Shown here one piece after another: positions 36,696 through 64,000 of a stretch of 64,000 bases of DNA. Where the stretch lies: positions 1-64,000 of the forward strand of contig JAVEYW010000008.1 in assembly GCA_034003325.1 (NCBI GenBank), written 5' to 3'. Position 1 is the first letter of the stretch, and every line of letters begins with the position of its first letter. The DNA is from Desulfobacterales bacterium. GTDB lineage: Bacteria; Desulfobacterota; Desulfobacteria; Desulfobacterales; JAFDDL01. A program made the position numbers and the translations under genes. The notes under the pieces were generated by a model. That model worked only from the letters and a program-made list of their open reading frames with translations, ran no database searches and was not told the DNA's origin.

Positions 36696-37769
36696 GTGAC
36701 CCAGCTCATTAACCCCATAGAAAATTTCGAGTTTTCCAAAGATGCGATTGCCGAAGCGGCGCAAAACGACCGTCTGCTTTCCATGGAGATCGAATTCAGC
36801 CTGCGCTGTAATTTCAGATGCGCCTACTGCTACGCGCCGCACGAAAATTATTTCAAGGACGAACTGACAGTTGTAGAAATTCAGTCCGCCATTTTACAAG
36901 CCAAAGCGATAGGGGCGGAAAAAATTATTATTTTGGGCGGCGAGCCTTCGATTTACCCGCATACCCCGGAACTGATTCGCTTCATACACGCTCTTGGCCT
37001 GCAAACCGAGATCTTCACCAACGGCACGGGAATTACATCTGAATTCGCAGGCCAATTGCATGCCCACAATACCCGCGTGGTCTTGAAAATGAACTCCTTT
37101 AACCCGGCACTGCAGGATCTACTGTCCGGGTATGCAGGGGCATATGGTATTATTCAAAAGGCTCTGGGTAATCTGAAACAAGCGGGCTACCCGTCACAGA
37201 ATCATTTTTTAGCGGTCAGTTCCATCATCTGCCGCCAAAACATAGCAGAGCTGCCACGAATGTGGCAATGGCTGCGCGAGCAAGGAATCGCTCCCTATTT
37301 TGAAATCATGACACCCCAGGCCAATGCCCTGCAAAACCATTGGCTCCATGTCGACCCGCTGGAACTGGAAACCTTATTTGAACGAATCAGGAAACTTGAC
37401 CGGCGCCTCTTCGGTCAGGTCTGGGAATCGCAGCCGCCGCTTGTGGGAAACGCGTGCATGCGCCATCAGTTTTCCTGCCTTATTACCTCAAAAGGAGATG
37501 TCATGCCTTGCGTGGGCATTCCCCTTGCCATGGGCAACATTCGCCGGCAACCTCTGCGGGAAATTCTTGCCGGCAGTCCGATACGGAAAGATTTAAAAAA
37601 TTACCGTCATACCATCAAGGGCCCTTGCCGCACCTGCGAGAAGGCAAGCGAATGTTATGGGTGCCGGGGGGCAGCGTTTCAGCTCACCGGTGATTATCTT
37701 GCCTCAGACCCGCTTTGCTGGCGCAATGCGCGGCAGGCACCACCCTGCGATCGACCGGACGGTCGATAA
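36696..37769 (+). CDS. Radical SAM/SPASM-type protein
   Basis: 357 residues with a GTG start. The [4Fe-4S]/SAM motif is CNFRCAYCYAP near residue 38, followed by ILGGEPSIYPH and IFTNGTG. A C-terminal SPASM-like Cys set is visible: CMRHQFSCLITSKGDVMPC, CRTCEKASECYGCRG and a last Cys in DPLCW. Such enzymes modify peptides or small molecules. The substrate is unknown and no peptide precursor was found next to it. Its 3' end overlaps the 3' end of the minus-strand polysaccharide deacetylase by 86 bp. Confidence 0.85.
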   Translation: MTQLINPIENFEFSKDAIAEAAQNDRLLSMEIEFSLRCNFRCAYCYAPHENYFKDELTVVEIQSAILQAKAIGAEKIIILGGEPSIYPHTPELIRFIHALGLQTEIFTNGTGITSEFAGQLHAHNTRVVLKMNSFNPALQDLLSGYAGAYGIIQKALGNLKQAGYPSQNHFLAVSSIICRQNIAELPRMWQWLREQGIAPYFEIMTPQANALQNHWLHVDPLELETLFERIRKLDRRLFGQVWESQPPLVGNACMRHQFSCLITSKGDVMPCVGIPLAMGNIRRQPLREILAGSPIRKDLKNYRHTIKGPCRTCEKASECYGCRGAAFQLTGDYLASDPLCWRNARQAPPCDRPDGR

Positions 37770-38529
37770 GCCGTTCCAGGGGCACCATTTCAAGCCCAGC
37801 TGCCTTTACCCCCCTTAGCAACCGATCCACCTCCGCCAGCCAGTCGGCGACGCAGCCTTGTTTTATAGGTCGCAGATCATGCAGCAGAATAATATCGCCA
37901 GCCCGCACCTTTTTAAGAACGCGCTCGGCAATGCCGTGAATGCGTCGATTGCCCCGATCCCGAGCGGAACAACTGAAATTGACGGCCACAAGGTTCAGCC
38001 GGCTCAAAATTCGCCGCAGCACGGGATAGGTGATTCCGACCGGAGGTCTGTAAACCAGGGGCTCCACACCCAGCCGGGCCAGCACCCGTTGGGTGCGGTC
38101 AATGTCCCGGAAAATCGCCTTTTGACCTTTGAATACCAACAGAGGGTTATGGCTGAAAGAGTGGTTACCGACCGTATGACCATTGGGCAAAATGGCCCGA
38201 ATCAGATCTGGATAAGCCAGGGCATTTTTACCGGTGACAAAAAAAGTGGCCACCATACCGTGTGCTTTCAAAAGTTCGAGCAGTTTCGGGGTGGTCAGCG
38301 GGTCCGGTCCGTCGTCAAAGGTCAGGGCAACCCATTTTTTTCGAGGGTTTCCGCGGCTGATAATGGGCAGATAAAAACTCCAGCGATGGAAAAACGGCGC
38401 CATCAGGCACAATGCAACAAAAATCGCAAGGGGGACACTTGCCAGGAATGGACACCCCGCGACGACGGCAAGCAGCGCCAGTGTCAGCGCCGCTGCGCCC
38501 ACTTTATAAGCGTTAGTCCAGGATCGCAT
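37684..38529 (-). CDS. Membrane-anchored polysaccharide deacetylase (NodB-type)
   Basis: 281 residues from MRSWTNAYKVG. Two hydrophobic N-terminal segments precede the NodB domain. Its motifs are ALTFDDGPDPLTTP (metal Asp), HTVGNHSFSHNPL (metal His pair), VYRPPVGI and AGDIILLHD. It would deacetylate an N-acetylated sugar on a glycan or glycolipid. It overlaps the exporter gene by 17 bp and is the last gene of the biosynthetic operon. Hydrolases of this type occur in some aryl-polyene/flexirubin-like clusters. Confidence 0.88.
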   Translation of the reverse strand: MRSWTNAYKVGAAALTLALLAVVAGCPFLASVPLAIFVALCLMAPFFHRWSFYLPIISRGNPRKKWVALTFDDGPDPLTTPKLLELLKAHGMVATFFVTGKNALAYPDLIRAILPNGHTVGNHSFSHNPLLVFKGQKAIFRDIDRTQRVLARLGVEPLVYRPPVGITYPVLRRILSRLNLVAVNFSCSARDRGNRRIHGIAERVLKKVRAGDIILLHDLRPIKQGCVADWLAEVDRLLRGVKAAGLEMVPLERLIDRPVDRRVVPAAHCASKAGLRQDNHR

Positions 38530-41500
38530 AGGACGCCACGGCATGCGGGGGCAATAGCTCACCATCGGCCTTCGTGGATTTAAACCAGATCAACTCGCCG
38601 TCATACCCTGAGGGCCGCACGCATTGCACGCTAAACCCGCACTGAGTAAGGATCGCGCGGATGTCATCGCCGGAGCGGTAGAACGTCGGAACGCCATTAA
38701 GTTTCTGCTTCAGGTGTTCCATCCACCATCCAAAGGCCATGCGACGGGTCGGCACCATCACCGAGCGAATCAATAACCGGCCACCGGAAACCATCAGGCC
38801 GTTCAGACCGGTCAGGGTGGCGCGCAGTTGCACGTCGGGCAAAAAATGCATCATATCCAGCATAAACGCCCCATCCACGGGGAAAGGGGCGGGCGGCAGA
38901 TCCGGCGCCCGTCCGCAAATTACCTCCCCGCGACCGTTGACCGCCCGTTTGGCCACTTGAACCCGGTCCGCAGCGGGTTCGATGCCGTAAATGTTGGCTT
39001 GCGGAAATGTTTCCAGCAACCAGCAGGCCGGTACGCCAAAACCGCTGCCGATATCTACCAGTGTTTGCGGGGGGTCTTTAAATTCCGTCAGTTCAGGCAG
39101 TTCGGTAAACATGGGGTCCAACCGCAGTTTAAACCGGGCAAACATGCGGGCATAAGGCGTCATACCGCGGTAACGCAAAAGAACACGTTCCCGGCGATCC
39201 CCCGGGACAGCTGCAACCGGTCTCCTGTCCTCAAAATACCACTTGAGCAGCGGCGGCAGAATCAGAAAGGCGCCGACCACCGAATACCCGATGCCCAGGA
39301 AGGATACCACCCCGATACTTTGCAACAGAGAATGATGTGCGGTCACCATCACGCCAAAGCCGATCATCGTGGATGCCGCGGCCATGAAAATGGCTGCGCG
39401 GATCAACGCAAAAGAGGGATGCGAAATGGTTCCGTAATGCTGATAGGAGCACACCAGGTATAGGGAATAATCTATCCCCATGCCCAGCACGACAATGGTC
39501 AGCATCAAGGCGGGAATATCCAGCGGACGGCCCATGAGATGCATCGACCCCAGTGTGGCCGTCATGGCAAAGACAACCGGCGCAAGCGCGATGAGGGTCA
39601 GGCTCACATCCAGAAAAAAGACAAGCAGCAACACGACCACCACCGGCGCGATGATCACCAGGAGCTTGCTGAAGGTATGGAAAAACAGGCTGCCCAACTG
39701 CCTTGAAAAGAGAGATGGATCAAAAATCCGAGCAGCCGAGTGGTAGCGCTCATAGAAGCGATCCCCGCCATAATCGCCAGGCAGGGCCAGACTGGTAAAC
39801 TGTCGCCATTTGCCATTATCGGCATCGCGCGAAATGCCCATCAGGCCAAAGTACTCGGCGGGAATGCCGGCAGCGGGCCGTATAGCGTTTTCAGGATCGG
39901 CCAGCAGATCGTAAAAGGCGGCAAAGGCATCGGGCTTAAACCCTAAATTCCGGCTGCCTGCCTGTAATGCCGCCTTTAAATCGGCAATCCGCCGCTCGGT
40001 CCAAAAGCTTTTCCATGCAGCCAGATTGGCGGCCCTGCGGTCGAAACCCGGAAAAATCATGGCGGGCAAAAAGGCACGGTCCGGCAGCTCGGCATCGGCA
40101 TCCTCCGTCAGCAGACTTAAAAGCTGATCCCCCTTTTTTTGCAGCTCGCCGATCGAATCGGCCTCGGTCATTAAAAAAACCTTGCCGAAAATATCCCCCC
40201 ATACCGACACCAGTTTCTGTTCGGCCTGCTGCGTCTCCCGGCTGACGGTATTCATGGCGCTCAAGTTGGCATTGAATTCGGGCTTGGCAAAAAAAGCCAT
40301 CACGATACAAAAGACCAGCGCCGCCCAGGCACCCTTGGGGCCGAATGAAAACAGACGGTCGGCCGCCTCGTGCAGCGGCAGCCGGCGCTGCCGCGCAGGG
40401 CCCAGCACCGGAAAAATACGGGGAAACACCGTATGAACAAACAGGAATGAAAGGCTGATCCCCAACGCCGCAAACTGCCCCAGTTGCTGAAAAATCGAAA
40501 ACCCACTGAAGGATAGCGCGGCAAAAGCGCCCACGGTGGTCAGGGTGGCCAGCAGGCCGCAGGCCTGCACCTCCCGGGAAGCCTCTTTGCCATAGGACGT
40601 ATGGGGGCGATCCAAAAAAAGCAGGTAAACAATGCCATGGTCCACGGTTATGGAGATAATGGCGCCGCCAAAACCCAGGACCATAATGGAAATGGAAGGA
40701 TACATCAGCGTCATGATGAAAAAAGCCGTTAAAATTCCCGCGACCGCCGGCAGCAAGGACAACAGGCCGAGGATCGGTCTCGGAAAAGCAAAGAGCAGCA
40801 ACATGGCAACCCCTGCCGTGGCAAACCAAACGGCATGCTGCACATCCGCGCGCACGATCATTTCATTATCCAGGGCAGCCCGATAGGCGCCCACGGGGGT
40901 TAACGTCACCTGCACCCCCCGCGGTTCAAAGGCTTGCCGGACCCGATCGGATATCTGCGCCAGGTTTTCGGAAAGCCGGCACGCCATGGCGGTATCCGTA
41001 CTCGAACCGGCCGGGGTGGCGGTCATTAACAGATGACGCCCATCGCCGGAAATCAACTGGCCCTGATAGATTCGGGCAGTTTGCGTCGGGGCCATATGAA
41101 TCAACTTGGAGAGCACCAGATTCTTTAACCCCAACGGGTCCCGCGCGAGATAAGCCGCCTGCCCGATCCCGCTCATTTGCAGCAGCCCGGCCCGCATTTC
41201 CCGCAGCGCATGCGCCACCTGCTCGGGTTTCAAACCGGGCAAGATTCGGGTTTCAAGTTCTAGTTGCGTAAATAAGACCGGAAGGTTGTGAACGATATAC
41301 CCCGCCAGTTGCGGCAGGTGCCGCTGAATATCCGCCATGCCCACGGTTTTAAACAGGCCGCTTTGCGTCAACTCCTGCGCCACCATGCGCCCGATAGCCG
41401 TCAATACGTCGGGATCATTCCCATCCATCCCGATGTCGATGGTCAACTGATCCTGAAGTGGATGATGGCGAAAGATATGAACGGCATCAGCGATGACCGG

Positions 41501-41635
41501 GTCTTTACGGGGCAACGAGTTTACGATATCTGTATCAATGGTGACGCGCTGCCAGCCAATGGCAAACAGCACGGCGGCGCCAATCAGGACCAGCAGCAAC
41601 AACGGATAATGGGTGCGGGAGTTATTCATGCGCAT
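38513..41635 (-). CDS. MMPL/RND-type exporter fused to a SAM-dependent methyltransferase
   Basis: 1040 residues. The first about 830 residues are two MMPL halves: one N-terminal TM helix, a large periplasmic loop (about 35-240), five TM helices with GFGGAIISITVDHGIVYLLF, a second loop, and a second TM block with VVLGMGIDYSLYLVCSYQHYG. The remaining about 190 residues are a class I methyltransferase: LVDIGSGFGVPACWLLE, NIYGIEPAADRV, FPVDGAFMLDMMHFLPD. Exporters of this sort occur in aryl-polyene clusters, where the methyltransferase is usually a separate gene. Fusion implies methylation of the product at the membrane during transport (inference). Confidence 0.9.
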   Translation of the reverse strand: MRMNNSRTHYPLLLLVLIGAAVLFAIGWQRVTIDTDIVNSLPRKDPVIADAVHIFRHHPLQDQLTIDIGMDGNDPDVLTAIGRMVAQELTQSGLFKTVGMADIQRHLPQLAGYIVHNLPVLFTQLELETRILPGLKPEQVAHALREMRAGLLQMSGIGQAAYLARDPLGLKNLVLSKLIHMAPTQTARIYQGQLISGDGRHLLMTATPAGSSTDTAMACRLSENLAQISDRVRQAFEPRGVQVTLTPVGAYRAALDNEMIVRADVQHAVWFATAGVAMLLLFAFPRPILGLLSLLPAVAGILTAFFIMTLMYPSISIMVLGFGGAIISITVDHGIVYLLFLDRPHTSYGKEASREVQACGLLATLTTVGAFAALSFSGFSIFQQLGQFAALGISLSFLFVHTVFPRIFPVLGPARQRRLPLHEAADRLFSFGPKGAWAALVFCIVMAFFAKPEFNANLSAMNTVSRETQQAEQKLVSVWGDIFGKVFLMTEADSIGELQKKGDQLLSLLTEDADAELPDRAFLPAMIFPGFDRRAANLAAWKSFWTERRIADLKAALQAGSRNLGFKPDAFAAFYDLLADPENAIRPAAGIPAEYFGLMGISRDADNGKWRQFTSLALPGDYGGDRFYERYHSAARIFDPSLFSRQLGSLFFHTFSKLLVIIAPVVVVLLLVFFLDVSLTLIALAPVVFAMTATLGSMHLMGRPLDIPALMLTIVVLGMGIDYSLYLVCSYQHYGTISHPSFALIRAAIFMAAASTMIGFGVMVTAHHSLLQSIGVVSFLGIGYSVVGAFLILPPLLKWYFEDRRPVAAVPGDRRERVLLRYRGMTPYARMFARFKLRLDPMFTELPELTEFKDPPQTLVDIGSGFGVPACWLLETFPQANIYGIEPAADRVQVAKRAVNGRGEVICGRAPDLPPAPFPVDGAFMLDMMHFLPDVQLRATLTGLNGLMVSGGRLLIRSVMVPTRRMAFGWWMEHLKQKLNGVPTFYRSGDDIRAILTQCGFSVQCVRPSGYDGELIWFKSTKADGELLPPHAVASYAILD

Positions 41636-41657
41636 TCATGTGGTAACAGTTAAGTCC

Positions 41658-42386
41658 TCAACTCCAAGCGCGCCATGCCCATACCGCCAGCGCCAACAAC
41701 GCGGCAAGGTGCAGGGCGACGAGCAAATTCCGGTTGGCAAGCCGCCATTCATTGACCTTCTGAATTCGTTTTAACCCGCCCATGCACCGCCTGAATCCGT
41801 CCAAAAGGCGATGATTGAAATTATCCGACGGGGCATCGCTTTGAAAAGCACAGGCGGGATACATGGCATAGAATCCACCCGCAAAGCTTTCTATCATACC
41901 ATCAAAAGGAACTTTGCACCAAGGTTTTCGGGCCACGGTTTCGGCAAAGGGCCGGTTCAAGGCGTAGGCGTGTGCCAAACAGCGGTAAGAAATTTCTGCA
42001 ACTGATTCGGCCTCCGTTTTGCGGCTTTTTTGTGACAGGCAACCGAGAAAAAAGGCCTTCCAATCGGAGCGAGCCTGTAAAAAGGCCGCACAACGAATGA
42101 GTCGCTCGGCATTAAAGCGTTCGAACATCACATCATCTTCGAAAATCAGGATCGTATCGGCATCGGTCGCAAGCCCCCGGCGAATGCACTGCTGGTGGGA
42201 CTCATAGATACCCTGCTCACAGTCCAGCGGATGCCGCTCAACCATCACGAATTCCACCCGGGAAGCCAGCCCGACCCGTTGAAACTGCTCAAGGGCCTGA
42301 CGCCGGCGATCGATGCGTTCCCGCAGGGAAATGCAGTAGATGCGGTCAAAAAAATCCCACGCGCTGCTGTGATCGATTTGGTTCAT
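41658..42386 (-). CDS. Glycosyltransferase family 25-like protein with C-terminal anchor
   Basis: 242 residues. It opens with a GT25 pattern: FFDRIYCISLRERIDRRRQALEQF, GIYESHQQCIRRGL and the DxD-like ILIFEDDVMFE. There is a C-terminal hydrophobic segment, LLVALHLAALLALAVWAW. It could add a sugar to the cluster product or to lipopolysaccharide. It precedes the exporter gene by 22 bp. Confidence 0.78.
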   Translation of the reverse strand: MNQIDHSSAWDFFDRIYCISLRERIDRRRQALEQFQRVGLASRVEFVMVERHPLDCEQGIYESHQQCIRRGLATDADTILIFEDDVMFERFNAERLIRCAAFLQARSDWKAFFLGCLSQKSRKTEAESVAEISYRCLAHAYALNRPFAETVARKPWCKVPFDGMIESFAGGFYAMYPACAFQSDAPSDNFNHRLLDGFRRCMGGLKRIQKVNEWRLANRNLLVALHLAALLALAVWAWRAWS

Positions 42387-42555
42387 GGCCGGCCGGATTT
42401 AAACCCTCTTGATTGTCATGTCTCGGTAGCATACAAGATAAAGGAACTGTCACTATACTTTCCTGAGCGTTTTGCACGGATCCGGTTTGCCGTCTGCAAG
42501 GAAATCGGCCGGGCTATCGTTCTTTTTTTAACCGTATCATCGCTACAGTGCCCCG

Positions 42556-42936
42556 TTGAAAAACATCATTGCCAAACTTGCCGGTTTACCCTTTGTCCAA
42601 AAAGCCATGGACGAAGAAGCCGATTTAGGTGCCTTTAAACAGCGCCCGACCTTGAAAGTGGTCCTGGGCGTCTCCCTGATCGCCTTTAGTTACCTGATCG
42701 GCTGGCCGTTGATCGGGCTGTTGACCAGCTTGTCCATTTATTACCATCAACCGCTGCTGATCGCCGTTGGCGGACCGCTTGCTTACGGCCTGTCCCACCT
42801 GGTTTTTCTTGCGGGCATGTATATCGCCGGTGCAAAATACACCCGGATTTTCCTGCGCTGGCTGACCCGCGCCGCTATGCTCAAGCTCATGCAAAAATTT
42901 CCCGCCGCCGCACCAGAAAACCATCCGGTTCGCTGA
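42556..42936 (+). CDS. Small membrane protein of the biosynthetic cluster
   Basis: 126 residues starting at TTG with only a weak ribosome site, so a later start is possible. Two or three TM segments (VVLGVSLIAFSYLIGWPLIG and YGLSHLVFLAGMYIAG) lie between a charged N terminus and a basic C-terminal helix. I do not recognise the family. It is the only plus-strand gene within the cluster, convergent with the dehydratase-like gene. Confidence 0.6.
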   Translation: MKNIIAKLAGLPFVQKAMDEEADLGAFKQRPTLKVVLGVSLIAFSYLIGWPLIGLLTSLSIYYHQPLLIAVGGPLAYGLSHLVFLAGMYIAGAKYTRIFLRWLTRAAMLKLMQKFPAAAPENHPVR

Positions 42937-42982
42937 ATGCGAAGGATATCCTCTTATTTAAGCGCCTATAGCGCCGCAGCAG

Positions 42983-43858
42983 CTACCGATCTGCCATGAC
43001 CCACTGCGGCGGCTTTACTCGCCCCCCGCTCACATCGCGCATTTGGACCCCCAGCGCCACCTCGCGGGTTTGGCCATCGGCGTCCAAAATCCACAGGTCG
43101 AAAACGAGCAACGCCTTTTGAATGCGCACGGGAATGACCCGGCAAGCGTAGTCTTCACCGGCTATCGTGGGGATAAGCACCCGGCGCTGATCCATGCCAA
43201 CGGGAAAGGCCACCACGCCGGTAAACCGCTGCCCCCAGACACAGGCCGCTTGAAACGCCGCGTCCAGAACAAAGGGAGACCCCAAGGGGTTGTTCCTGCC
43301 TGTCATGGGATCATCCGGCGCCTGAATAACCGCCAGGACGCCCTTATCCGTAATTTTTAGCGGCTGACAAATATTGCGGTAAGCCGGGCCAAAAGGAACC
43401 AGCTCCGCATAGATGCGCTCCGGCTCGACATGAAAGCAAGCATCTTTCAGAGTCACGGCTGAATCCATAGGCAGATGAAGCGATTCAACGGCACCTGTTT
43501 TTGGAGGAAAAACAACACGGGCATGCACTTTGGTGCGGGTAAACCCGGCAGATCCGGTTTTCATCCGGGTCAGCAGGGAAGCCGCCACGGTGCCGTCCGA
43601 ATGCTCAGCCATATCACAGTAAGCGCCCAGCTCACGCATTGCCGGGGCAATTTCCAAAAACTTGTCAAAGCGGGCCTGCCGAATGGTCGCACCGTTCATA
43701 CCGGAGCAAAATTGCCCGGCGTGAACCGCCAAAAGATGCATGGCCTCCACCGCCGGAAGCACCGCGCCGCCCATAAAGCGATGATCCATCCAAGCAGGCG
43801 ACACAACCACCTGAATTTCCTTTCGGCAGCTCGAAACTATTTCGGAAAGATTTCCCAT
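42983..43858 (-). CDS. Stand-alone polyketide-synthase-type dehydratase
   Basis: 291 residues from MGNLSEIVSSCRKEIQ, overlapping the thioesterase gene by 22 bp. It is double-hotdog-like: a first half with WMDHRFMGGAVLPAVEAMHLL (catalytic His in the DHRFMGGAVLP motif, like HxxxGxxxxP) and a second half with PFVLDAAFQAACVW (Asp of the DxxxQ/H motif). Such domains dehydrate beta-hydroxyacyl chains in polyketide synthases. Here it is a separate protein beside discrete ketosynthases. Confidence 0.8.
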   Translation of the reverse strand: MGNLSEIVSSCRKEIQVVVSPAWMDHRFMGGAVLPAVEAMHLLAVHAGQFCSGMNGATIRQARFDKFLEIAPAMRELGAYCDMAEHSDGTVAASLLTRMKTGSAGFTRTKVHARVVFPPKTGAVESLHLPMDSAVTLKDACFHVEPERIYAELVPFGPAYRNICQPLKITDKGVLAVIQAPDDPMTGRNNPLGSPFVLDAAFQAACVWGQRFTGVVAFPVGMDQRRVLIPTIAGEDYACRVIPVRIQKALLVFDLWILDADGQTREVALGVQMRDVSGGRVKPPQWVMADR

Positions 43859-44316
43859 AGATGCACCGTTTTGGCATCGATACCCACGGGGATTCCCGAA
43901 GCGTTGACCGCGCAATGCCGGGTATACCCGATGCAGGCGATGTCGCCGCTTTGCTCGTGGGTAATAATATAATCAAAGCGCAGTTTGACGCGTTCCATTT
44001 CAGCAGGGCGCGTATGAATACACATGACATCGTCATACTGCAGGGGATGGAAATAATCCACCCCGGCGGCAATAATCGGGTAATTATAGCCGCTCGCCTC
44101 GATGTCGCGATAGGAATAAGCCGTATCCCGCATCAGCGATGCCCGGCCGAATTCGAAATAGCGCAGATAATTGGCATGGTAGACCACCTGCAAGCGGTCA
44201 ACATCCGCATATGGCGCACGCAACCGGCAGCAATGCCAGACCAGGCCGCTGGTGTTGTCGCGCACATAGGGGGCATCACCCTTCAAGGATTCGGGAACAA
44301 AGGGCCTGGGCCGCAC
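43837..44316 (-). CDS. Acyl-CoA/ACP thioesterase, 4HBT (YbgC-like) family
   Basis: 159 residues with a hotdog fold: APYADVDRLQVVYHANYLRYFEFGRASLM has the catalytic Asp and the YHANY motif of YbgC/4-hydroxybenzoyl-CoA thioesterases. It continues GVDYFHPLQYDDVMCIHT. It probably releases or edits acyl chains from the carrier proteins of this cluster. It starts 3 bp after the ketosynthase stop. Confidence 0.9.
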   Translation of the reverse strand: MRPRPFVPESLKGDAPYVRDNTSGLVWHCCRLRAPYADVDRLQVVYHANYLRYFEFGRASLMRDTAYSYRDIEASGYNYPIIAAGVDYFHPLQYDDVMCIHTRPAEMERVKLRFDYIITHEQSGDIACIGYTRHCAVNASGIPVGIDAKTVHLWEIFPK

Positions 44317-44319
44317 GGG

Positions 44320-45585
44320 TTATACTCCTTTGAACACAATACAACAGTTGGTTCCGCCGAAACCAAAGGCATTGGAGAGAAAAAATTCATACCGATGCCG
44401 GCGAGCCCGGTCGGGAACCACATCAATATCGCTAAATTCCGGGTCCGGAATATGGTTGATCGTCGGAAGCACAAGCCCCTGCTGCATGGCCTCAATCCCC
44501 AGGGCCGCCTCGATAGCGGCGGCGGCGGCCAGTGTGTGCCCGATCTGAGATTTGTTGGACGACACCGGAATATAAGCGAGCTGCCCGCCGAAAACCGCCC
44601 TTAAGCATTCGATTTCGATTTTATCCCCTTTGATGGTGGAGGTCCCGTGCGCGCTGATATACTGAATGTCCTGTGGTGTCAGGCCGGCATCGTCAATGGC
44701 CTGTCCCATGGCCCGTACGATGGTCTGTCCGCTGGGCAGGGTAAAGTGATGGGCATCCGAGGTCCAGCCAATCCCCAGCACCTCGGCTTTGGGTGTTAAG
44801 CCCCAGTAGGCCGCGCTTTCTTCGGCCGCAAGGATCACCACCCCCCCGCCCTCGGACAGCACGAACCCGCGGCGGTCGATGCTGAACGGGCGCGATGCCC
44901 GGGCGGGGTCGCTAAACGCCCGGTCATCAGGATCGATCTTAATGGTGGCCCACATATTGGCAAACCCCTGAATAATCTCCGGAATCAGGCAGGTATCAAC
45001 GCCGCCTGCAATCACAAAATCGCAGTCTCCGTCTCGAATCATGCGGGCGCCGATCGCGATGGCGTGGTTGCCGGAAGCACAGGCACCCTGCGGCGAAAAA
45101 ATCGGGCCGGTAAATCCCAGCATCATGCCGGCCTTGCCGGCCGGAAGATTGGCGCACAAGTTGGGCAATAAATACGGACTGACCTTGGTCGGCCCCTGAG
45201 TCGTATAGTTTTCGACGGCAATCCGCAGCGCATCGCTGCCGTTTAGCGCCGAGCCCACCAGGCAGGCCGTGCGTGGGCCGGTCTGCGCGTTCATTTCAAG
45301 CCCGGCTCTTCCCAGCGCGCGCTTGCACAACGTCATGGTCAGAAACACAAAGTCGGCGTTCCAGTTATAAGCGTCTTTGCGATCAATATAGTCAAAGGCG
45401 TGCGGTTGCCAGTCCGGTATCTCTCCCACCACATTGCTGCGCGTTGTGACCGGGCAGCGCGTAATCCTGCGAAAACCGGCCTCCCCACGGACCGCTCGTT
45501 CCCAGGTGGCTTCAAACGTGTTGCCCAAAGGGGTGGCCGTATCATACCCAACCACAAATACTCTTCTGTTCTGCGGTGCCTTCAT
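44320..45585 (-). CDS. Beta-ketoacyl-ACP synthase (FabF-like)
   Basis: 421 residues. The Cys-His-His triad is intact: SPQGACASGNHAIAIG, SAHGTSTIKGDKIE and SNKSQIGHTLAAAAAIEA. It also has FGFGGTNCCIVF at the end. It elongates acyl chains by decarboxylative condensation. It follows a second ketosynthase, from which it is separated by 119 bp that include a hexamer repeat. Confidence 0.93.
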   Translation of the reverse strand: MKAPQNRRVFVVGYDTATPLGNTFEATWERAVRGEAGFRRITRCPVTTRSNVVGEIPDWQPHAFDYIDRKDAYNWNADFVFLTMTLCKRALGRAGLEMNAQTGPRTACLVGSALNGSDALRIAVENYTTQGPTKVSPYLLPNLCANLPAGKAGMMLGFTGPIFSPQGACASGNHAIAIGARMIRDGDCDFVIAGGVDTCLIPEIIQGFANMWATIKIDPDDRAFSDPARASRPFSIDRRGFVLSEGGGVVILAAEESAAYWGLTPKAEVLGIGWTSDAHHFTLPSGQTIVRAMGQAIDDAGLTPQDIQYISAHGTSTIKGDKIEIECLRAVFGGQLAYIPVSSNKSQIGHTLAAAAAIEAALGIEAMQQGLVLPTINHIPDPEFSDIDVVPDRARRHRYEFFLSNAFGFGGTNCCIVFKGV

Positions 45586-45643
45586 TACCCAAAAATCTCA
45601 CTATGTATTCGTTGACCGTCCCCCGCGCGACGGGGGGATAACC

Positions 45644-45680
45644 GTGAACGTAAACGTACACGTGCACGTGAACGTGCACG
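45644..45680. repeat. Hexanucleotide tandem repeat between the two ketosynthase genes
   Basis: Six units of GTRMAC (GTGAAC, GTAAAC, GTACAC, GTGCAC, GTGAAC, GTGCAC) run head to tail. A CCCCC/GGGGG hairpin lies just before, at about 45619-45638. Confidence 0.85.
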
Positions 45681-45704
45681 GCCCCTCAAAATCAATACCG
45701 TCCC

Positions 45705-46967
45705 TCACCGAATCCTCTGAAAAACCACGCATGCATTGCAACCACCAAACCCGAAGGCGTTTTTCAACACAAACCTCTGAGACACCTTGCGGCATCCCTC
45801 AGCCACACAATCGATCGGCATCCGCGCATCCTCGCGATAATTAATGGTCGGTGGCAGCACGCCCGCGAGCATTCCCTCAAAGGTAAAAATGGACTCAATC
45901 GCGCTGGAGGCTCCCATGGCATGGCCCATCAGAGATTTATTCGCGGTTACCGGCGGCAGATGCCTCTTGAAAACGGATTGCAGGGCATCAAATTCCACCT
46001 TGTCGCCAATACGGGTGGCGGCCGCGTGAGCATTGACGGCATCAATGTCACCCGCGGCAATCGCGGCATCATCAATGCTTTCCTGCATACACCGCCGCAC
46101 GGTCTCCAAATTGGGGGCCACAAAATGATGGGCATCCGAGGTCATGCTCCAACCGGCAATGCCGATCCGGTAATCCAAGCCATGCACAAGGGCAAATTCT
46201 TCGGCCGCCAGAATAATGCAGCCGGCGCCCTCTGAAACCACAAACCCGCGCCGATCAATTGAAAACGGACGGCTGACCGTGTGCGGCGCCTCTTGCGCAT
46301 CTTCCTCTTTAGGTACATACGCCCCGTTCATGGTAGCAAAGCCGGCCACAATCGGTTCGACCAGGGGAAAGTCAACAGCCCCGCAGATCACCACATCAGC
46401 CCGGTTCTGGGCCAGCAGCATGGCCCCCACAATGACCGAGGTCAATCCGGTGGCGCAAGCGCTTACAGGAGGGGCGAGGGGGCCGGTTGCGCCGGTCAGA
46501 ATAGACACCTTGCCGGCCACCATGTTGATGCACGCATTGGGATTGACACAGGGCAGAGGCAGGCTGCCGCGCGCGATCATGTTGCGATCGGCCGCAAGGA
46601 CCGCATCCAGTCCGCCGATGGCCGAACTGTAAGTGACGGCCACCCGCGGCGCCACCCGCGGCGTAATGACGAGACCGCTACGGTGAAGCGCCCGCGCGAC
46701 GGTCAGCAGGGCGTATTTAAACAACGGGGAAATCCAGCGCGCCTGCTCGCGCGGCGTTAAAAAAGGATAATCAAGATGATCGATATTCGGGACTTCTCCG
46801 GACACACGGACCGGAAACACATCACTGAGATCAAACCGCGTCAGGCAATCAATGCCGCTTTCTCCCGCAAGGGCGCTCCGCCACTGATCCGCAAGATCGA
46901 TCCCCAGCGGAGAAACCGCGTCATAACCGATCACAACCGCTCTTTTGGCGCATGCCCCGTGTCTCAT
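45705..46967 (-). CDS. Second beta-ketoacyl-ACP synthase
   Basis: 420 residues from MRHGACAKRAVVIGYDAVSPLG; earlier Met residues are possible but lie in the preceding gene. The Cys in VSACATGLTS, the first His in VNAHAAAT (the usual Gly-Thr-Ser after His is altered) and the second in NKSLMGHAMGASSAIES are present. It also has RPFSIDRRGFVVSEGAG. Substrate preference may differ from its neighbour because of the changed HG(T/S) motif. Confidence 0.92.
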   Translation of the reverse strand: MRHGACAKRAVVIGYDAVSPLGIDLADQWRSALAGESGIDCLTRFDLSDVFPVRVSGEVPNIDHLDYPFLTPREQARWISPLFKYALLTVARALHRSGLVITPRVAPRVAVTYSSAIGGLDAVLAADRNMIARGSLPLPCVNPNACINMVAGKVSILTGATGPLAPPVSACATGLTSVIVGAMLLAQNRADVVICGAVDFPLVEPIVAGFATMNGAYVPKEEDAQEAPHTVSRPFSIDRRGFVVSEGAGCIILAAEEFALVHGLDYRIGIAGWSMTSDAHHFVAPNLETVRRCMQESIDDAAIAAGDIDAVNAHAAATRIGDKVEFDALQSVFKRHLPPVTANKSLMGHAMGASSAIESIFTFEGMLAGVLPPTINYREDARMPIDCVAEGCRKVSQRFVLKNAFGFGGCNACVVFQRIR

Positions 46968-46983
46968 CATGCTCCACGTCTTT

Positions 46984-47982
46984 TTACCATGGCAGGAACT
47001 GGTAAAGCTTGGCAAACATTTCGTAAATTTCGATCCAGTTCTGCAAATCCTTTGTCGAGCGCATGTGATCGCGCTTATGGACCATGACCCAGCTCATGTG
47101 GGCCGCACCGTCTTTGCAGGTGACGCAGTCTCTGGTTTCAGATGTGCAGCAACGGTGCATGGTCTTTAAGTCCGATGCCCAGCGGATAAAATTGGTCAAC
47201 CGCTTGGGCTGAGGATTCCGGCGGTCCAGCGGGGCGGTCACCGAGGGACATTCCATCCATCCGAAAGACCTGCCCAGCATGCGGCCCGTGGTAATGATTT
47301 CATGGTAGTATTTTGATGAGATCACGGTGTCGGGATAGGCATCGAGCATGGCATCCATTTCCGCGCGAATCGCCACAAGCTCATGCGGCTGCCAGGAAAA
47401 TCCGTCCACACCCTCGTCATTGGACAGCAACTGCAGGTGAACCTTTAGGCCGACATTCCGGATTTTTCGAATGACGCGCTCGGTCCTGCCGATCTGTTTC
47501 GGTGTGATGGTGTAAAGGTAATAGGTGTAAGGGTCGCCGGCATAGTGTTTGCTGGAAATGGAAAAGGCATCCTGGCCGCGCAGGATCTTTTCGTCGTTTT
47601 CGTCCCCCCATACCGAGATGCCGATCATCATATTCGGGAACCGATTCCGGGGCACCTTGATCAACCCATTGGTGGCGCAAAAGCTCGGCAGTCTTTTATA
47701 AAAGGCCTCCACGCGATCCAGGCACAAGGTGGGCTCCCCGCCGATGAGAATGGCCAGGTTCACGCCCCGCGCCTTTTCGCGGTCTATAAAATCCTCCCAG
47801 CAGCCGATGTCCTTTTGCTCGGCGGCGGCTTTGTGCTCATCGGAAGAGAAAAAAAAACAGCCCTTGCAGCGCAGGTTGCAGCGATTGGTCACATCGTAAA
47901 TCGAACTGCGAATATTCAACTTGGAAATTTTTTTATAGCGCTCATACCAGCGCTCATCCAACAGCGAGCTGACAGTCTTCAT
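46984..47982 (-). CDS. Radical SAM protein, cluster copy B
   Basis: 332 residues. Radical SAM motif: CNLRCKGCFFF near residue 36, then ILIGGEPTLCLD, FCATNGLIKVP and MIGISVWGDEND. A C-terminal group of cysteines (CPS, HRCCTSETRDCVTC) probably binds an auxiliary cluster. It is clearly paralogous to the upstream gene: same DVTNRCN, GGEPTL and ISVWG layout. The substrate is unknown; such enzymes in lipid clusters are candidates for cyclisation or C-C bond formation. Confidence 0.87.
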   Translation of the reverse strand: MKTVSSLLDERWYERYKKISKLNIRSSIYDVTNRCNLRCKGCFFFSSDEHKAAAEQKDIGCWEDFIDREKARGVNLAILIGGEPTLCLDRVEAFYKRLPSFCATNGLIKVPRNRFPNMMIGISVWGDENDEKILRGQDAFSISSKHYAGDPYTYYLYTITPKQIGRTERVIRKIRNVGLKVHLQLLSNDEGVDGFSWQPHELVAIRAEMDAMLDAYPDTVISSKYYHEIITTGRMLGRSFGWMECPSVTAPLDRRNPQPKRLTNFIRWASDLKTMHRCCTSETRDCVTCKDGAAHMSWVMVHKRDHMRSTKDLQNWIEIYEMFAKLYQFLPW

Positions 47983-47986
47983 GCAG

Positions 47987-49099
47987 TTACTCCAAAGCCG
48001 GTTCCTTCAATTCAAACCCGGGCGGGGGCACCGGGACATGGCACAGATTGTCACCCTTTTTATAGTCACGAACCCATACCGCCAAATAGGTGTCCACATA
48101 ATCCAGCCAGGATTGAAACGTCCGCGGGTCGCACGCATGGCGAAACAATCGCGCAGTCACCACCGCACTGCCGGCAGCATAGTGGCGGCAGTCGTCGCAA
48201 TCGGTATCGGGCACGCAACAGGCAGCCTGCCGCTCCCAGGTGAGATCGGTCCGGTACTGGCGGAAAGAACGCCCCAACCCCATATCCATGGACACATTTC
48301 GGCGAGGGTACGAGCAGCCGAACAACTCGTGAAGCCCATGGCCGTGCGTGTGGGCCACAGCATTATAATAAGAATAGAGCACGGTCCGCGGATAGCGATT
48401 CAGCAGATGAATCACGACCTCACGGGTTCGGCGCAGCGAATCCTTCGAATGGCGTAAAGCACCGGTGTAGCCAACCGGTGCCGAAAACATGTTAAAGGTG
48501 ATGCGGCAACCGTTCAGTGCAAGCAGGCGAGTCACCCCTTCGGCTTGATCCACATTATCCGGGGTAAAGGTGTAAACAAAGACCGCCCGGGGGTCGGCAT
48601 GATAATTTTCAATTTGCCGTTTGAGCATGTCCCTGGCGTTTCGAAGCCTGGCACTGGTCTCATCATTGCCCCATACGGAAATATGAATCTTATACCCGAT
48701 ATCCTCGGGTATTTTCTTAAGCCCGTTGGTGGCAACCGCCCCCAGCGGCATTTCCTCAAAGCAGGCCCGGCACAGCTCCGGAACCAGCGACGGTTCCGCG
48801 CCGGCCAGCACCACAAAGGTGATGCCGCGCGCCTTTTCCCCCTGCATCAAGGCCCGCCATGCCGCAGGATCCCGATTTTCATCCGCATGCTGTTTATCAC
48901 CTTCGAAATAATAACACCCATCGCAGCGAATATTGCACCGGGAGGTCATATCATACGTCGATTCACGAAGGAAAAAGTAACGGCGCACCTTCTCCCAGCG
49001 GTCCCGAACCCGTGGGTCGCTGATCAGTTCAGCGAATTTCCACTGTTTTGGTTCATTCCCCCCTGTTTCGATCCCATGAATCGCATGTTCACCGCCCAC
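47987..49099 (-). CDS. Radical SAM protein, cluster copy A
   Basis: 370 residues. Motifs: DMTSRCNIRCDGCYYFEG, FVVLAGAEPSLVPEL, AVATNGLKKIP and KIHISVWGNDET, then a C-terminal Cys set (FGCSYPRR, ACCVPDTDCDDCRH). It ends 4 bp before copy B. The second Gly of the usual GGEP motif is Ala here. Tandem radical SAM genes inside a FAS-II-like cluster are unusual. Confidence 0.87.
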   Translation of the reverse strand: MGGEHAIHGIETGGNEPKQWKFAELISDPRVRDRWEKVRRYFFLRESTYDMTSRCNIRCDGCYYFEGDKQHADENRDPAAWRALMQGEKARGITFVVLAGAEPSLVPELCRACFEEMPLGAVATNGLKKIPEDIGYKIHISVWGNDETSARLRNARDMLKRQIENYHADPRAVFVYTFTPDNVDQAEGVTRLLALNGCRITFNMFSAPVGYTGALRHSKDSLRRTREVVIHLLNRYPRTVLYSYYNAVAHTHGHGLHELFGCSYPRRNVSMDMGLGRSFRQYRTDLTWERQAACCVPDTDCDDCRHYAAGSAVVTARLFRHACDPRTFQSWLDYVDTYLAVWVRDYKKGDNLCHVPVPPPGFELKEPALE

Positions 49100-49162
49100 T
49101 GGTGCGTTCCCCGTTTCGCGTTTTTATCTGGTGATTTTTCCGCATAGCCGGTATTCCGCCCA

Positions 49163-49435
49163 TTACGCCCTCACGCTGAGCTTATGGCGCAAGTATTCCG
49201 AAATCAAACGAATCGTGGTCAGTTTCGGATAATCATCCTCATCGATACGCACCGAATATTCATCGCGCAACACCAGAGCGACGGTCGCAAGGTCCATGCT
49301 ATCCAGGCCGACCTCATCCACCAGCTCGATATCCGGGTCAAAGCTTTCAGCGGTGACATCCTCCAATTTAAGTTCGTTGATCATGATTTCCGCCACGCGA
49401 AGAATGATGCTTTCCGAATCCGCTCCCACTCCCAT
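49163..49435 (-). CDS. Acyl carrier protein 2
   Basis: 90 residues. The phosphopantetheine-attachment motif is VGLDSMDLATV, with Ser near 46 in the centre of a short, acidic four-helix protein. AGGAGAG stands ahead of the ATG. It lies between the dehydratase and radical SAM genes and would carry the growing chain. Confidence 0.93.
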   Translation of the reverse strand: MGVGADSESIILRVAEIMINELKLEDVTAESFDPDIELVDEVGLDSMDLATVALVLRDEYSVRIDEDDYPKLTTIRLISEYLRHKLSVRA

Positions 49436-49470
49436 AGGTTGTTCTTTCTCTCCTAAACAGTTTTTTCGTA

Positions 49471-49833
49471 TTAATCCGTTATGCGATTGAACGGTTCCAC
49501 CGTGATATCCCCGATGCAGACCAGCTCCTCTTGTTTAAGAATGCGAAAAGCATATTGCCCGCTGCGGCCGACTTTGGGTAAAACCCGCACGGTCAGCCGG
49601 TCATCCGGCAGGACCATCTGCTTGAATCGCACACGGCTCACCTGCGTGACCCGAAGATCCGCCTTCAGTGCCTGCCTGATGACATCAAAAACCAATCCGA
49701 GCTGGGCGATTCCGGGCAAGACGGGATTGCCGGGAAAGTGTCCCTGAAACCAGGGTGACGCAACCGGCACATGCACATCGGCGCACAGATCGCTTTCCGG
49801 GGAAGGGTTTTGAATGGTGACCTCGTACCACAT
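49471..49833 (-). CDS. FabZ/FabA-like 3-hydroxyacyl-ACP dehydratase
   Basis: 120 residues with a hotdog fold. PWFQGHFPGNPVLPGIAQL holds the catalytic His of the GHFPxxPxxPG motif, and RVRFKQMVLPDDRLTV follows. It dehydrates beta-hydroxyacyl-ACP. A second dehydratase-type gene stands alone at 42983-43858, and a third begins at 63920. Confidence 0.9.
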   Translation of the reverse strand: MWYEVTIQNPSPESDLCADVHVPVASPWFQGHFPGNPVLPGIAQLGLVFDVIRQALKADLRVTQVSRVRFKQMVLPDDRLTVRVLPKVGRSGQYAFRILKQEELVCIGDITVEPFNRITD

Positions 49834-49999
49834 ATTTCGGTTTTTTAAATCATTTCATATACAAGTTCAAGAGCCGGCCGGATTTATTTTAAAATCAACC
49901 TCGCCCTCAAAGGGCCGGCATAGCCCCGGCCACATCCTAAGACCCGGCGAATTGGCCGGGAAGAAGCGGTCACGGTATTGGCGGATATGCGTACCCCTT

Positions 50000-52168
50000 T
50001 CATGATTTAAGCAATCTGATGGCTGATAAATATGCCCCCAGCCCCAGCAGTAAAATGCCCTTGCCCCCCAGCGACGGCCAGCCGTTTTGTTCCAGAAGTT
50101 TAACCGAAACCGCGGCCGCCACTGCCGAAGCGGTTGCAAATTCGCCGGTCTGCCGACGATAATCCACGACCGGGCCATCGAATCGGCACCGGGCCAAAAA
50201 CTGCGCCAATTGTTCGTTTGCCCGCGGGCGTTGCGCAGCCGGCACGCCGGCCATCACCATGCCGTAGGTTGCATTGACGCATGCCGCGCCGCCCAAGTGC
50301 TCGATCAGGTGCTCGATCAGGTGATCCACGCTGCCGGAAGCGTCAGCCAACCGGTAATAGGCCAGATCCATGCTTACACCGGCGACACCGGCCATGTCCC
50401 GTGGCCGTTCCAGGCAAAAAGCCCCGCCACCATCTGAAAGACGGTTCGCCCCCCCCACGGAAAGGTCGAACAGGGGAGATAGGACCGGATGCGCTTCATC
50501 GGCAGCAACCAATAGAATGGATCGACTCTCGTTTCGGGTCTGCAAATCCGCAGTCAACAAGGCCTGTTCAAAGGAACAATCGCCGCCCGAAACGGTAATA
50601 TTGGCCCCCGTGGCTTGATACATCATGGCGATCTGGCCGGCCGGCGCATTATGCACCGAGCCGATAAAATCGGCTGGGGATGGAAATTGCAGTTCCGTTT
50701 CAAACAGACGCGTCAGAAAATGATGCGTTTCAGTCATAGCGCCCCAACCGGTGCCGAAACTGACCGCCGAAGGGCGATACCCGGCCGGACATGCCGTCAT
50801 GGCTTCCCGGGCCAGGGCCAGGGCCATTTTGGGCAAGCGCTTGAGCCGTCGAATCGCTCGGGACGGGAACCCGGCCGTCAGTCGTTCATCTGCCGAACAT
50901 CCGCTGCAAGCCTCACCGGAAAGCATGGCAGATGCAGTTTCTTCGGTCCAGCCGGCGCCGCTCAAGCAGGATAGCCCCTTGACCATCAACGGGGCAACTG
51001 CACGGAAGGGCTTCTCCGTTTTTTGCGAAACACTCCGGCGAGCCTTTCCAATCACCAATGCAGCATTATTGCCGCCAAAGCCAAATGAATTGGACAAGGC
51101 GGTATTCACCGGCCTATCGATCGGTTCGATCGCCGGGGTCAGATTCAGGTCCGAATCCACCGTGTTAACGCCCACATTGGCCGGAACAACCCCATGCTCT
51201 GCACAAAGCGCCGTCACCACGGCTTCAATAGCCCCGGATGCCGCAAGGCTGTGCCCCACGCTACCTTTGATGGACGATACCGCGGGTGGCTTTCGATCAA
51301 ACAACCGGTTGACGGCCAGCGCCTCGGACCGATCGTTTTCAAAGGTGCCGGTTCCGTGCAAATTGACGTAATCGATATCACCGGGTGAAACCCCGGCATC
51401 GGCAAGGGCTGCCCGCATAGCGGCAAACGCACCCTGTCCTTCAGGATGCGGAGCGCTCGGATGATGCGCATCGCAGGAAAAGCCTCCGCCCAAAATACAG
51501 ATACCGGAGGCATCAACCGCTTCGGTGCTCAACAAAAGCATGGCCGCGCCATCGGCAATACTCATGCCGCGGCGTTCCAGGTCCAGGGGGCGAGAACCTG
51601 CCGGATCGAGCAATTGCAGGGAATGAAAACCGAAATAGGTCAGGCGGCACAATCCGTCCGCCCCGCCGGCCAGAACCCGCCGGGCCATTCCGCAACGCAG
51701 CATGTCAACCGCCAGTTTAATGGCGGCGGCACCGGATGAGCAGGCGGTGGAAATCGTTATCAGCGGGCCACAGCAGCCATAGCGACGCGCCAGTTCTTCG
51801 GTTACGGAATTGACGGCATGATTTCTGAACGCTTCGGGGGAGTGAACTTTTTTCGCCAGCAGGTCTTCGGTTATCTGCATGCCCCCAGTCGTAACCCCAA
51901 GCACAATCGCATCCGGCGGCTCGCGCCTGCCGCTCATGGCCTGATCCGCCGCCGAACAGGCCAGTTGATGGGTTCTCGGCAGAATATCCGATGAATGAAT
52001 AGTGGGGACTTCGCCCACCGGAAACAGGGCATCCGGCGGTACTGTAAACAGGCTTAATGGACGCAGTCCTTTTTGACCGGATTTAAGTGCCCGCAAATGA
52101 CAGGCCGGCCCGCTGCCGAGCGCACTGATAATTCCCATACCGCAAATATGGATCGGAACGCCGGTCAA
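50000..52168 (-). CDS. Ketosynthase fused to a chain-length-factor-like half
   Basis: 722 residues. Residues about 1-385 are a full ketosynthase: STACSSGAAAIKLAVDML, LHGTGTFENDRSEA, SIKGSVGHSLAASGAIE and FGFGGNNAALV. Residues about 400-722 resemble the 'ketoacyl-synt_2' chain-length-factor family of aryl-polyene clusters: VSFGTGWGAMTETHHFL, GSVHNAPAGQIAMMY, SGGDCSFEQALLTA and SDGGGAFCLE. In known clusters KS and CLF are separate chains that form a heterodimer; here they are one chain. A 12-bp tandem duplication at about 50297-50322 gives LIEHLIEH. It overlaps the ACP stop by 4 bp. Confidence 0.87.
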   Translation of the reverse strand: MTGVPIHICGMGIISALGSGPACHLRALKSGQKGLRPLSLFTVPPDALFPVGEVPTIHSSDILPRTHQLACSAADQAMSGRREPPDAIVLGVTTGGMQITEDLLAKKVHSPEAFRNHAVNSVTEELARRYGCCGPLITISTACSSGAAAIKLAVDMLRCGMARRVLAGGADGLCRLTYFGFHSLQLLDPAGSRPLDLERRGMSIADGAAMLLLSTEAVDASGICILGGGFSCDAHHPSAPHPEGQGAFAAMRAALADAGVSPGDIDYVNLHGTGTFENDRSEALAVNRLFDRKPPAVSSIKGSVGHSLAASGAIEAVVTALCAEHGVVPANVGVNTVDSDLNLTPAIEPIDRPVNTALSNSFGFGGNNAALVIGKARRSVSQKTEKPFRAVAPLMVKGLSCLSGAGWTEETASAMLSGEACSGCSADERLTAGFPSRAIRRLKRLPKMALALAREAMTACPAGYRPSAVSFGTGWGAMTETHHFLTRLFETELQFPSPADFIGSVHNAPAGQIAMMYQATGANITVSGGDCSFEQALLTADLQTRNESRSILLVAADEAHPVLSPLFDLSVGGANRLSDGGGAFCLERPRDMAGVAGVSMDLAYYRLADASGSVDHLIEHLIEHLGGAACVNATYGMVMAGVPAAQRPRANEQLAQFLARCRFDGPVVDYRRQTGEFATASAVAAAVSVKLLEQNGWPSLGGKGILLLGLGAYLSAIRLLKS

Positions 52169-52431
52169 TTAAATGGCTCCGGGGCCTTCTCCTTGATATA
52201 TTCGGCCAGGGTTTTCAGGCTGGCAAACACCTTGGCACCAAGCTCCTTATTGTCAATGACGACCCCATAATCCTGTTTGATCATGATCACCATTTCGAGC
52301 ACATCGATGGAATCGACCCCCAGCTCCCCGCCCACCAACCGGGCATCGGTTTTGATATCGGCGGGGCTCAGCTCCGGCAAGTTCATAATGTCAATGAGTT
52401 TGATTTTCAGTTCTTCCAGCAATTGTTCCAT
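52165..52431 (-). CDS. Acyl carrier protein 1
   Basis: 88 residues from MEQLLEELKIKLIDIMNL (longer frame to 52512 unlikely). Attachment motif: ELGVDSIDVLEMV, with Ser in the middle. The acidic DSIDVLE carrier type is the one found in aryl-polyene and related clusters. It is the first gene of the operon and is coupled by overlap to the KS-CLF gene. Confidence 0.93.
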   Translation of the reverse strand: MEQLLEELKIKLIDIMNLPELSPADIKTDARLVGGELGVDSIDVLEMVIMIKQDYGVVIDNKELGAKVFASLKTLAEYIKEKAPEPFN

Positions 52432-52492
52432 AGGTTCAGCTTTATTCCAGGTTGCGGCTATCAGCCGATTGCGTTTTAATCGGGGTGCGCGG

Positions 52493-52641
52493 CCGTTTAC
52501 AGTATCAGCCAATTACAGTACCATGGTGCCCACATTGGTGCTTTTGCTTTTATCTGCTCTCAGCCCCATTTTCAATTCATTTCTCAGCGGAAAAAGGAGG
52601 CGCTGGTTCCTTTCCGGCACGGTTATTTTGTTCTGATATAA
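52493..52641 (+). pseudogene. Dead 5' stump of a dehydratase-like gene; left copy of a ~110-bp direct repeat
   Basis: 52493-52606 is about 70 percent identical, with one gap, to 63810-63920, the upstream region of the dehydratase-like gene at the right edge. It includes a shared 15-base block CCGTTTACAGTATCA and the shared AGGAGG ribosome site. Where the right copy has its ATG, this copy has CTG (52603). The frame then reads (L)VPFRHGYFVLI and stops at 52641, loosely like LLVHRGRMLLI of the right copy. It is therefore probably a decayed duplicate. Confidence 0.55.
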
Positions 52642-52690
52642 ATCATAATAAAATTCAGTATATTATGTACGCTTCCGATCTCATTCCCAT

Positions 52691-55060: not shown

Positions 55061-55070
55061 GGTTTAAAAA

Positions 55071-56654: not shown

Positions 56655-56694
56655 GAAAAGGCGACACAAGACAACAGGTCAATACGCCCCCTCT

Positions 56695-57609: not shown

Positions 57610-57619
57610 GAAACCATGA

Positions 57620-63809: not shown

Positions 63810-63919
63810 CCGTTTACAGTATCAAACAATTATAGTAGCATGCGCCTGTTCTGAAGCATTTGTGGTTATCCGCTCACAGGGCCTATTCTCAATATATTTC
63901 TCGGTGGGAAAGGGAGGGT
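63810..63919 (+). repeat. Right copy of the ~110-bp direct repeat; upstream region of the dehydratase-like gene
   Basis: CCGTTTACAGTATCA and the downstream AATTATAGTA, CTATTCTCAAT and GGGAGGG pieces correspond in order and spacing to 52493-52606 with one gap. Being a promoter region it probably holds the -35/-10 elements, but no perfect pair was fixed. The rest of the 333-bp gap (63587-63809) shows no gene. Confidence 0.6.
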
Positions 63920-64000
63920 ATGGATTCTGCCGGAATTGAAGATCTGCTGGTTCATCGCGGCCGCATGCTGTTGATCCGCCAAATTATTACCGTGAACATG
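63920..64000 (+). CDS. Hydroxyacyl-ACP dehydratase-like protein, N-terminal fragment
   Basis: 27 codons, cut by the window edge; the ATG follows GGGAGGG. The sequence MDSAGIEDLLVHRGRMLLIR resembles the start of FabA/FabZ-like dehydratases of aryl-polyene clusters, which begin with a PHRxPMLLI-type segment. This suggests that the biosynthetic cluster at 37684-52431 continues to the right of the window. Only the fragment is visible, so this call rests on a few residues. Confidence 0.55.
   Translation, partial: MDSAGIEDLLVHRGRMLLIRQIITVNM

Follow-up and report, generated by a model that had tools for sequence, protein, structure and literature searches.

Two kinds of described gene clusters come closest to the locus studied here. 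One is the aryl polyene (APE) cluster of Escherichia coli CFT073 (apeA-R), for which we took protein functions from PMC8253772. The other comprises FAS II/radical SAM clusters common to Kuenenia and Desulfotalea; Rattray et al. left their product open and found no ladderanes in Desulfotalea (PMC2649909). Javidpour et al. listed the Kuenenia genes, expression of which in E. coli gave no ladderanes (PMC4790861). Genome surveys find 'ladderane' clusters in many non-anammox bacteria, including Desulfobacterota, and describe the function of these clusters as unknown (PMC9902471). Our literature search found no paper tying APE lipids and radical SAM enzymes to sulphate reducers.

The window analysed here is a stretch of 64,000 nucleotides (C8:1-64000; contig JAVEYW010000008.1, here C8) from a 4.6 Mb Desulfobacterales genome. 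The original prediction placed thirteen minus-strand genes of an unassigned biosynthetic operon at 37684-52431. All thirteen are present, spanning 37684-52512, and they occupy the left half of a region that extends over C8:36.7-75.6 kb. Nearly all of the proposed gene calls are right, including two dehydratases, a thioesterase, an exporter-methyltransferase, a probable glycosyltransferase and two radical SAM enzymes, and the two proposed DSxD carrier proteins are ACP90 (DSMD) and ACP115 (DSID). Three ketosynthase (KS) units had been counted; we found four KS-fold units, as one 722-amino-acid protein joins a complete KS to a chain length factor (CLF) half. The label 'unassigned' was too weak, because the region has most of the APE gene set, including an ApeH-like ligase. 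Judging from sequence, we consider it likely that these genes make up the left half of an APE-type lipid cluster in a strictly anaerobic bacterium, that a radical SAM module has been added to this cluster, and that two acyl parts would join one lipid.

The APE-like core that had been proposed is borne out by comparison with E. coli. We searched in both directions, with E-values set to a database of 5000 and a small E. coli background of housekeeping proteins only, so that the ligase and thioesterase matches are less sure in their specificity than those of the ketosynthases. In the reverse search, 14 of the 18 Ape proteins have a counterpart in the C8 region, which for 13 of them is the best match among 376 open reading frames (ORFs) from C8 and C4, another contig of the same genome. 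The best match of ApeE is an acyl carrier protein (ACP) of a cluster on C4, and ApeA, ApeB, ApeG and ApeN match none of these ORFs. Homologues of ApeH, ApeE/F, ApeO, ApeC, ApeR, ApeQ, ApeI, ApeP, ApeK, ApeD, ApeJ, ApeL and ApeM occur at C8:38.5-52.5 and 63.9-75.6 kb. This gene-by-gene match therefore points to an APE-type outer-membrane lipid cluster.

Operon genes are on the minus strand unless stated otherwise. At its right end is the ApeE-like ACP115 (52165..52512; PF00550; ApeE 1.4e-21), the true start of which may be at 52431, where the operon had been taken to end. It is followed by KS722 (50000..52168; 722 amino acids), in which an ApeO-like ketosynthase (1e-76) is fused to an ApeC-like CLF (2.1e-10) that lacks the catalytic Cys, His and His in the alignment, and by DH120 (49471..49833), an ApeI/FabA-like dehydratase that matches the ApeI-like family PF22818 above cut-off (ApeI 3.8e-15). 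Further to the left are an ApeK-like 4HBT thioesterase (43837..44316; PF13279; ApeK 2.5e-22) and an MMPL exporter that has a SAM methyltransferase fused at its C terminus (38513..41635; PF03176 and Methyltransf_25). The MMPL part resembles ApeM (4.3e-24) rather than ApeB (only 0.0037).

The missing ketoreductase had been guessed to lie to the right, and extending the contig revealed one (KR) at C8:64400-65161, 400 bp past the window edge (ApeQ 1.1e-62 in the forward search). It is preceded by an ApeP-like dehydratase that starts in the window on the plus strand (63860..64000; full gene C8:63860-64354; ApeP 8e-7 forward and 2.4e-6 reverse). Beyond KR are LolA (C8:65169-65792; ApeL 1.5e-9 forward), the lipoprotein p224 (C8:65789-66463), which has a lipobox-like LLGC and occupies the place expected for ApeN without sequence similarity to it, and a B12-radical SAM protein (C8:66476-67750). 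The minus strand then encodes, up to 75600, a PlsC-like acyltransferase (ApeD 9.5e-19 forward), KS413 (ApeR 1e-101), ACP93 (ApeF 9e-7), an LpxL-like acyltransferase and a GT2 protein (ApeJ 1.2e-16 and 1.3e-43, respectively, ApeJ thus being split in two genes), a DegV/DAK2 protein, a second small thioesterase and an AMP ligase (C8:74209-75600). The ligase, a candidate for loading the starter, and ApeH match each other (3e-25 forward, 2.6e-27 reverse), and both have the same top NCBIfam model, under cut-off in each case. The genome has just one PF00221 ammonia lyase, far off on C10, and thus no dedicated cinnamate supply is seen.

The outer-membrane destination guessed for the product agrees with the linkage of MMPL, LolA and lipoprotein genes to the cluster. 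These genes bear on a rival explanation, a secondary fatty-acid or polyunsaturated hydrocarbon synthesis that makes membrane PUFA or derived hydrocarbons and not an exported lipid. Such a pathway could use the FAS-II-like enzymes, and Desulfotalea contains C31:8 and C31:9 hydrocarbons (PMC2649909), but MMPL, LolA, the lipoprotein, the glycosyltransferases and the CLF point to an anchored, exported polyene, and the APE match extends gene by gene; we regard this explanation as very unlikely. Elsewhere in the genome, two very long ORFs with ketosynthase domains (2160 and 2354 amino acids, at C10:11128 and C3:257223; loci L001, L003 and L005) are possibly PKS- or PUFA-synthase-like.

Besides the unmatched ApeA, ApeB, ApeG and ApeN, two features of the genome count against the APE-type reading: the cluster is split, with 11.3 kb (52513-63859) parting ACP115 from the ApeP-like dehydratase, and the operon is without TIGR04072 and a 4'-phosphopantetheinyl transferase (PPTase) domain that are found in close relatives. 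L012 and other relatives have the ApeP-like gene directly opposite ACP115. Among the 46 Desulfobacterota loci that are at least 15 kb long (long loci), about 22 have KR, the ApeP-like dehydratase, LolA and the lipoprotein opposite ACP115, and in genomes G134 and G014 the ligase and the two halves all fall within 40 kb. The intervening 11.3 kb in the window hold a histidine kinase, an HD-domain regulator, a 3-hydroxyacyl-CoA dehydrogenase, a GGDEF protein, an SDR and other genes. The SDR (58582-59328) had been called a defective ketoreductase. Its YxxxK motif is indeed absent, but the relatives' gene at the cluster position is a different, normal ketoreductase, and we rejected the SDR as the ketoreductase of the cluster because it lacks the motif and is off the conserved position.

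The added module consists of ACP90, rSAM370, rSAM332, KSa, KSb, the thioesterase and a stand-alone PKS-type dehydratase (PS-DH). ACP90 (49163..49435; PF00550 1.2e-8) has a conserved DSM motif. The radical SAM proteins rSAM370 (47987..49099) and rSAM332 (46984..47982) are paralogues (29% identity) with Pfam matches under the gathering score, slightly so for rSAM332. Both ketosynthases, KSa (45705..47015) and KSb (44320..45585), match PF00109/PF02801, and the alignment places catalytic residues in KSa and the catalytic Cys, His and His in KSb. The PS-DH, DH310 (42983..43915; PF14765 4.8e-10), is a double hot-dog protein with HxxxGxxxxP and DxxxQ motifs, and its true start is probably ~57 bases downstream of the listed TTG. 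The PS-DH of L012, L036 and others has a C-terminal PPTase domain that the window copy lacks (compare 42387-42982); the only PF01648 match in the window genome is on C1.

From a genome scan with rSAM332 we retained 80 loci at 76-86% identity; the closest relatives are in Desulfatitalea, Desulfosarcina and other Desulfobacterota. The order DH120-ACP90-rSAM370-rSAM332-KSa-KSb-TE-DH310 is conserved; each gene occurs in 45-46 of the 46 long loci and the radical SAM pair adjoins ACP90 in all 46. The cluster genes are under purifying selection, and rSAM332 has the lowest dN/dS among fourteen genes tested (0.04-0.09, rough values with dS near saturation). Because the core genes are kept in this way and are under purifying selection, a chance grouping is excluded. 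An rSAM332 orthologue occurs in 28 of 395 genomes sampled from Desulfobacterota (E below 1e-180), most of which also have rSAM370 at the threshold used. The module is thus patchy across the phylum and strongly conserved where present. In G077, KSa lies between rSAM370 and rSAM332, and the rSAM370-like gene of G018 stands alone, as none of the tested cluster genes lies near it. One contig titled 'uncultured Spirochaetes' (L057) carries the cluster at Desulfobacterota-like identity (rSAM332 81%) and is either a mislabelled bin or a case of transfer.

Several accessory genes accompany the two gene sets. A polysaccharide deacetylase-like protein (PDA; 37684..38565; PF01522 2.8e-29) is linked to the cluster in 21 of the 46 long loci. 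A GT25-like protein (41658..42386), a probable glycosyltransferase, has a conserved FEDD motif and a weak PF01755 match, which reaches 2e-7 in its relative in L012; glycosylation and methylation of the product, as first proposed, would be plausible. We also identified an additional gene inside the operon on the plus strand (42556..42936), which encodes a small membrane protein conserved in 28 of the 46 long loci and matches no family in Pfam or NCBIfam. In a Syntrophus metagenome-assembled genome this protein is fused to a polysaccharide deacetylase (L072:2954-4111), which suggests that the two work together. Convergent with the operon, a 357-amino-acid SPASM radical SAM protein is encoded on the plus strand (36696..37769; Pfam Radical_SAM and SPASM); its gene lies within the operon just before DH120 in L064 (58% identity), and also in L039 and L050.

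C35, C39 and C42 of the CxxxCxxC motif are invariant in both rSAM370 and rSAM332. Four C-terminal cysteines, in a CC-x6-C-x2-C motif, are also kept in both, which suggests that the proteins may carry an auxiliary iron-sulphur cluster. No SPASM model matched, and no NCBIfam equivalog came near its cut-off. The AlphaFold model of rSAM332 (pLDDT 83, pTM 0.86) has a radical SAM fold, a partial TIM-barrel, and is best aligned to solved BlsE, SkfB and viperin-like structures. It shares its fold (Z 15-18) and the CxxxCxxC motif with radical SAM enzymes that have a C-terminal extension (BlsE, SkfB, anaerobic sulfatase maturase and viperin), but at only 10-17% identity, and this shared fold does not give the reaction. 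A sequence search of the PDB with rSAM332 returned one weak match.

More distant homologues of rSAM332 (28-34% identity) occur singly on plasmids of Burkholderia, Alteromonas, Methylomagnum and Tistrella (L092, L093, L094 and L095). They lie either next to a PaaA/PaaC-like protein that is accompanied by a thioesterase or a MaoC protein, or next to an ACP and an NRPS; two of these homologues are closer to rSAM332 and one is closer to rSAM370. We infer that the pair acts on a carrier-bound thioester. Most likely, it would modify an acyl chain bound to the module's own ACP, and the chain would join the APE-like lipid. A more far-reaching proposal holds that rSAM370 and rSAM332 form a new radical SAM subfamily that acts paired on acyl-ACP and, independently of oxygen, gives a polyene lipid a ring, a bridge or a branch, with the anammox ladderane candidate clusters as distant relatives of APE clusters; we think this unlikely.

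A further radical SAM family connects the locus to the ladderane literature. TIGR04072 ('rSAM_ladder_B12') is encoded in the operon of many relatives, where it lies between KS722 and DH120 (389 and 392 bits against a cut-off of 360), and is above cut-off in the operons of L012, L018 and L019. It is absent from the window operon, in which only 166 bp separate KS722 from DH120, and a copy is present on C4. TIGR04072 occurs in 26 of the 28 genomes with rSAM332 versus 130 of 367 others (Fisher p 1.4e-9, uncorrected for the relatedness of the genomes). The highest-scoring TIGR04072 clusters of the phylum (L106-L109) are APE-like: they share B12rSAM424 (58-61% identity), GT2, LpxL-like, ACP, KS and CLF-like KS genes, and some of them also LolA, MMPL and a SPASM radical SAM protein, but they lack rSAM370, rSAM332, KSa, KSb and DH310. 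Because these clusters share the APE-like genes without the pair, the latter has the look of a module added to an APE-like base. On C4 (L010/L011), TIGR04072 occurs with two KS, a thioesterase and a KR (C4:65866-70982), and a second stretch (C4:79645-94759) combines an ACP, LolA and MMPL with a KS-CLF-like fusion, a crtI-like oxidoreductase and several radical SAM proteins of the B12 or SPASM type.

These data allow a ladderane-type pathway to be weighed, in which the radical SAM enzymes would act as has been proposed for anammox bacteria and cyclise a polyunsaturated acyl-ACP to give a lipid with a strained ring. Besides the presence of TIGR04072 inside the relatives' operons and its co-occurrence with rSAM332, the gene content of the Kuenenia cluster (kuste3335-3352) speaks for it, with a radical SAM pair, ACPs, KS, a non-canonical KS, FabZ, FabG, a deacetylase and a methylase (PMC4790861, PMC2649909). 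The Kuenenia and Desulfotalea clusters resemble the C8 region in having a radical SAM pair beside an ACP and a dehydratase, several KS (some of them non-canonical), KR, deacetylase and methylase, and in relatives of the C8 cluster the resemblance extends to TIGR04072. Unlike the Kuenenia and Desulfotalea clusters, the C8 region has no phenylacetyl-CoA ligase and no phytoene-desaturase-like (CrtI) enzyme among its annotated genes, the only crtI_fam match being on C4, below the family cut-off; it has MMPL/LolA export, a thioesterase and a PS-DH. We rejected ladderane synthesis as the main reading on the lack of a desaturase in the region and the APE-like character of the top-scoring TIGR04072 clusters, and Desulfotalea, with its related clusters, yielded no ladderanes (PMC2649909). 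The pathway is highly improbable here and true ladderanes are an unlikely product. Of the ladderane link drawn in the original prediction, the part at gene-family level stands, with TIGR04072 in the relatives' operons, whereas the supposed difference in exporter does not hold in Desulfobacterota, whose TIGR04072 clusters have MMPL and LolA. We found nothing in support of the cyclised (cyclobutane) chain that it had suggested.

Under the APE-type reading, the ligase would place an acid starter on an ACP, and KS/CLF, KR and the dehydratases would extend it into a polyene without enoyl reduction. Acyl and glycosyl transferases would then anchor the polyene in a lipid, which MMPL, LolA and the lipoprotein may bring to the outer membrane. 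The added module would make or modify a second acyl unit on ACP90 by oxygen-independent radical chemistry, with the radical SAM paralogues working either one after the other or as a heterodimer; the second unit would join the same lipid. With its own ACP, two ketosynthases, thioesterase and dehydratase, the module could alternatively supply an alcohol or phenol partner to which the APE polyene acid is esterified. Flexirubins are an analogue of such a two-part ester lipid, and flexirubin models are among the best NCBIfam matches of KR and LolA, under cut-off; no aromatase, cyclase or DarB-like KAS III is among the annotated genes, and we judge the ester improbable.

The presence in an anaerobe of most of the APE gene set, with which other bacteria make yellow outer-membrane lipids, together with a strongly conserved radical enzyme pair, makes the locus a testable variant of a known lipid pathway, and it suggests that at least some of the Desulfobacterota FAS II/radical SAM 'ladderane' clusters are APE-type outer-membrane lipid clusters. 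The pair, with rSAM332 at 76-86% identity across many genera, is the part most worth testing, and cultured sulphate reducers that have the cluster grow more easily than anammox bacteria; cultured carriers include Desulfosarcina widdelii, Desulfogranum japonicum and Desulforhopalus sp. IMCC35007. In comparison with E. coli CFT073, reciprocal matches cover KS, CLF, KR, dehydratases, acyl and glycosyl transferases, ligase, LolA and MMPL. APE clusters had been said to lack a radical SAM pair, which is true of the E. coli cluster; its Ape proteins include no counterpart of rSAM332, rSAM370, B12rSAM424, DH310, GT25, p224, the membrane protein or the deacetylase. Unlike the E. coli cluster, the C8 region has KS and CLF fused, ApeJ split and the exporter fused to a methyltransferase, and it adds the radical SAM module, a deacetylase, a GT25-like protein and B12- and SPASM-radical SAM proteins.
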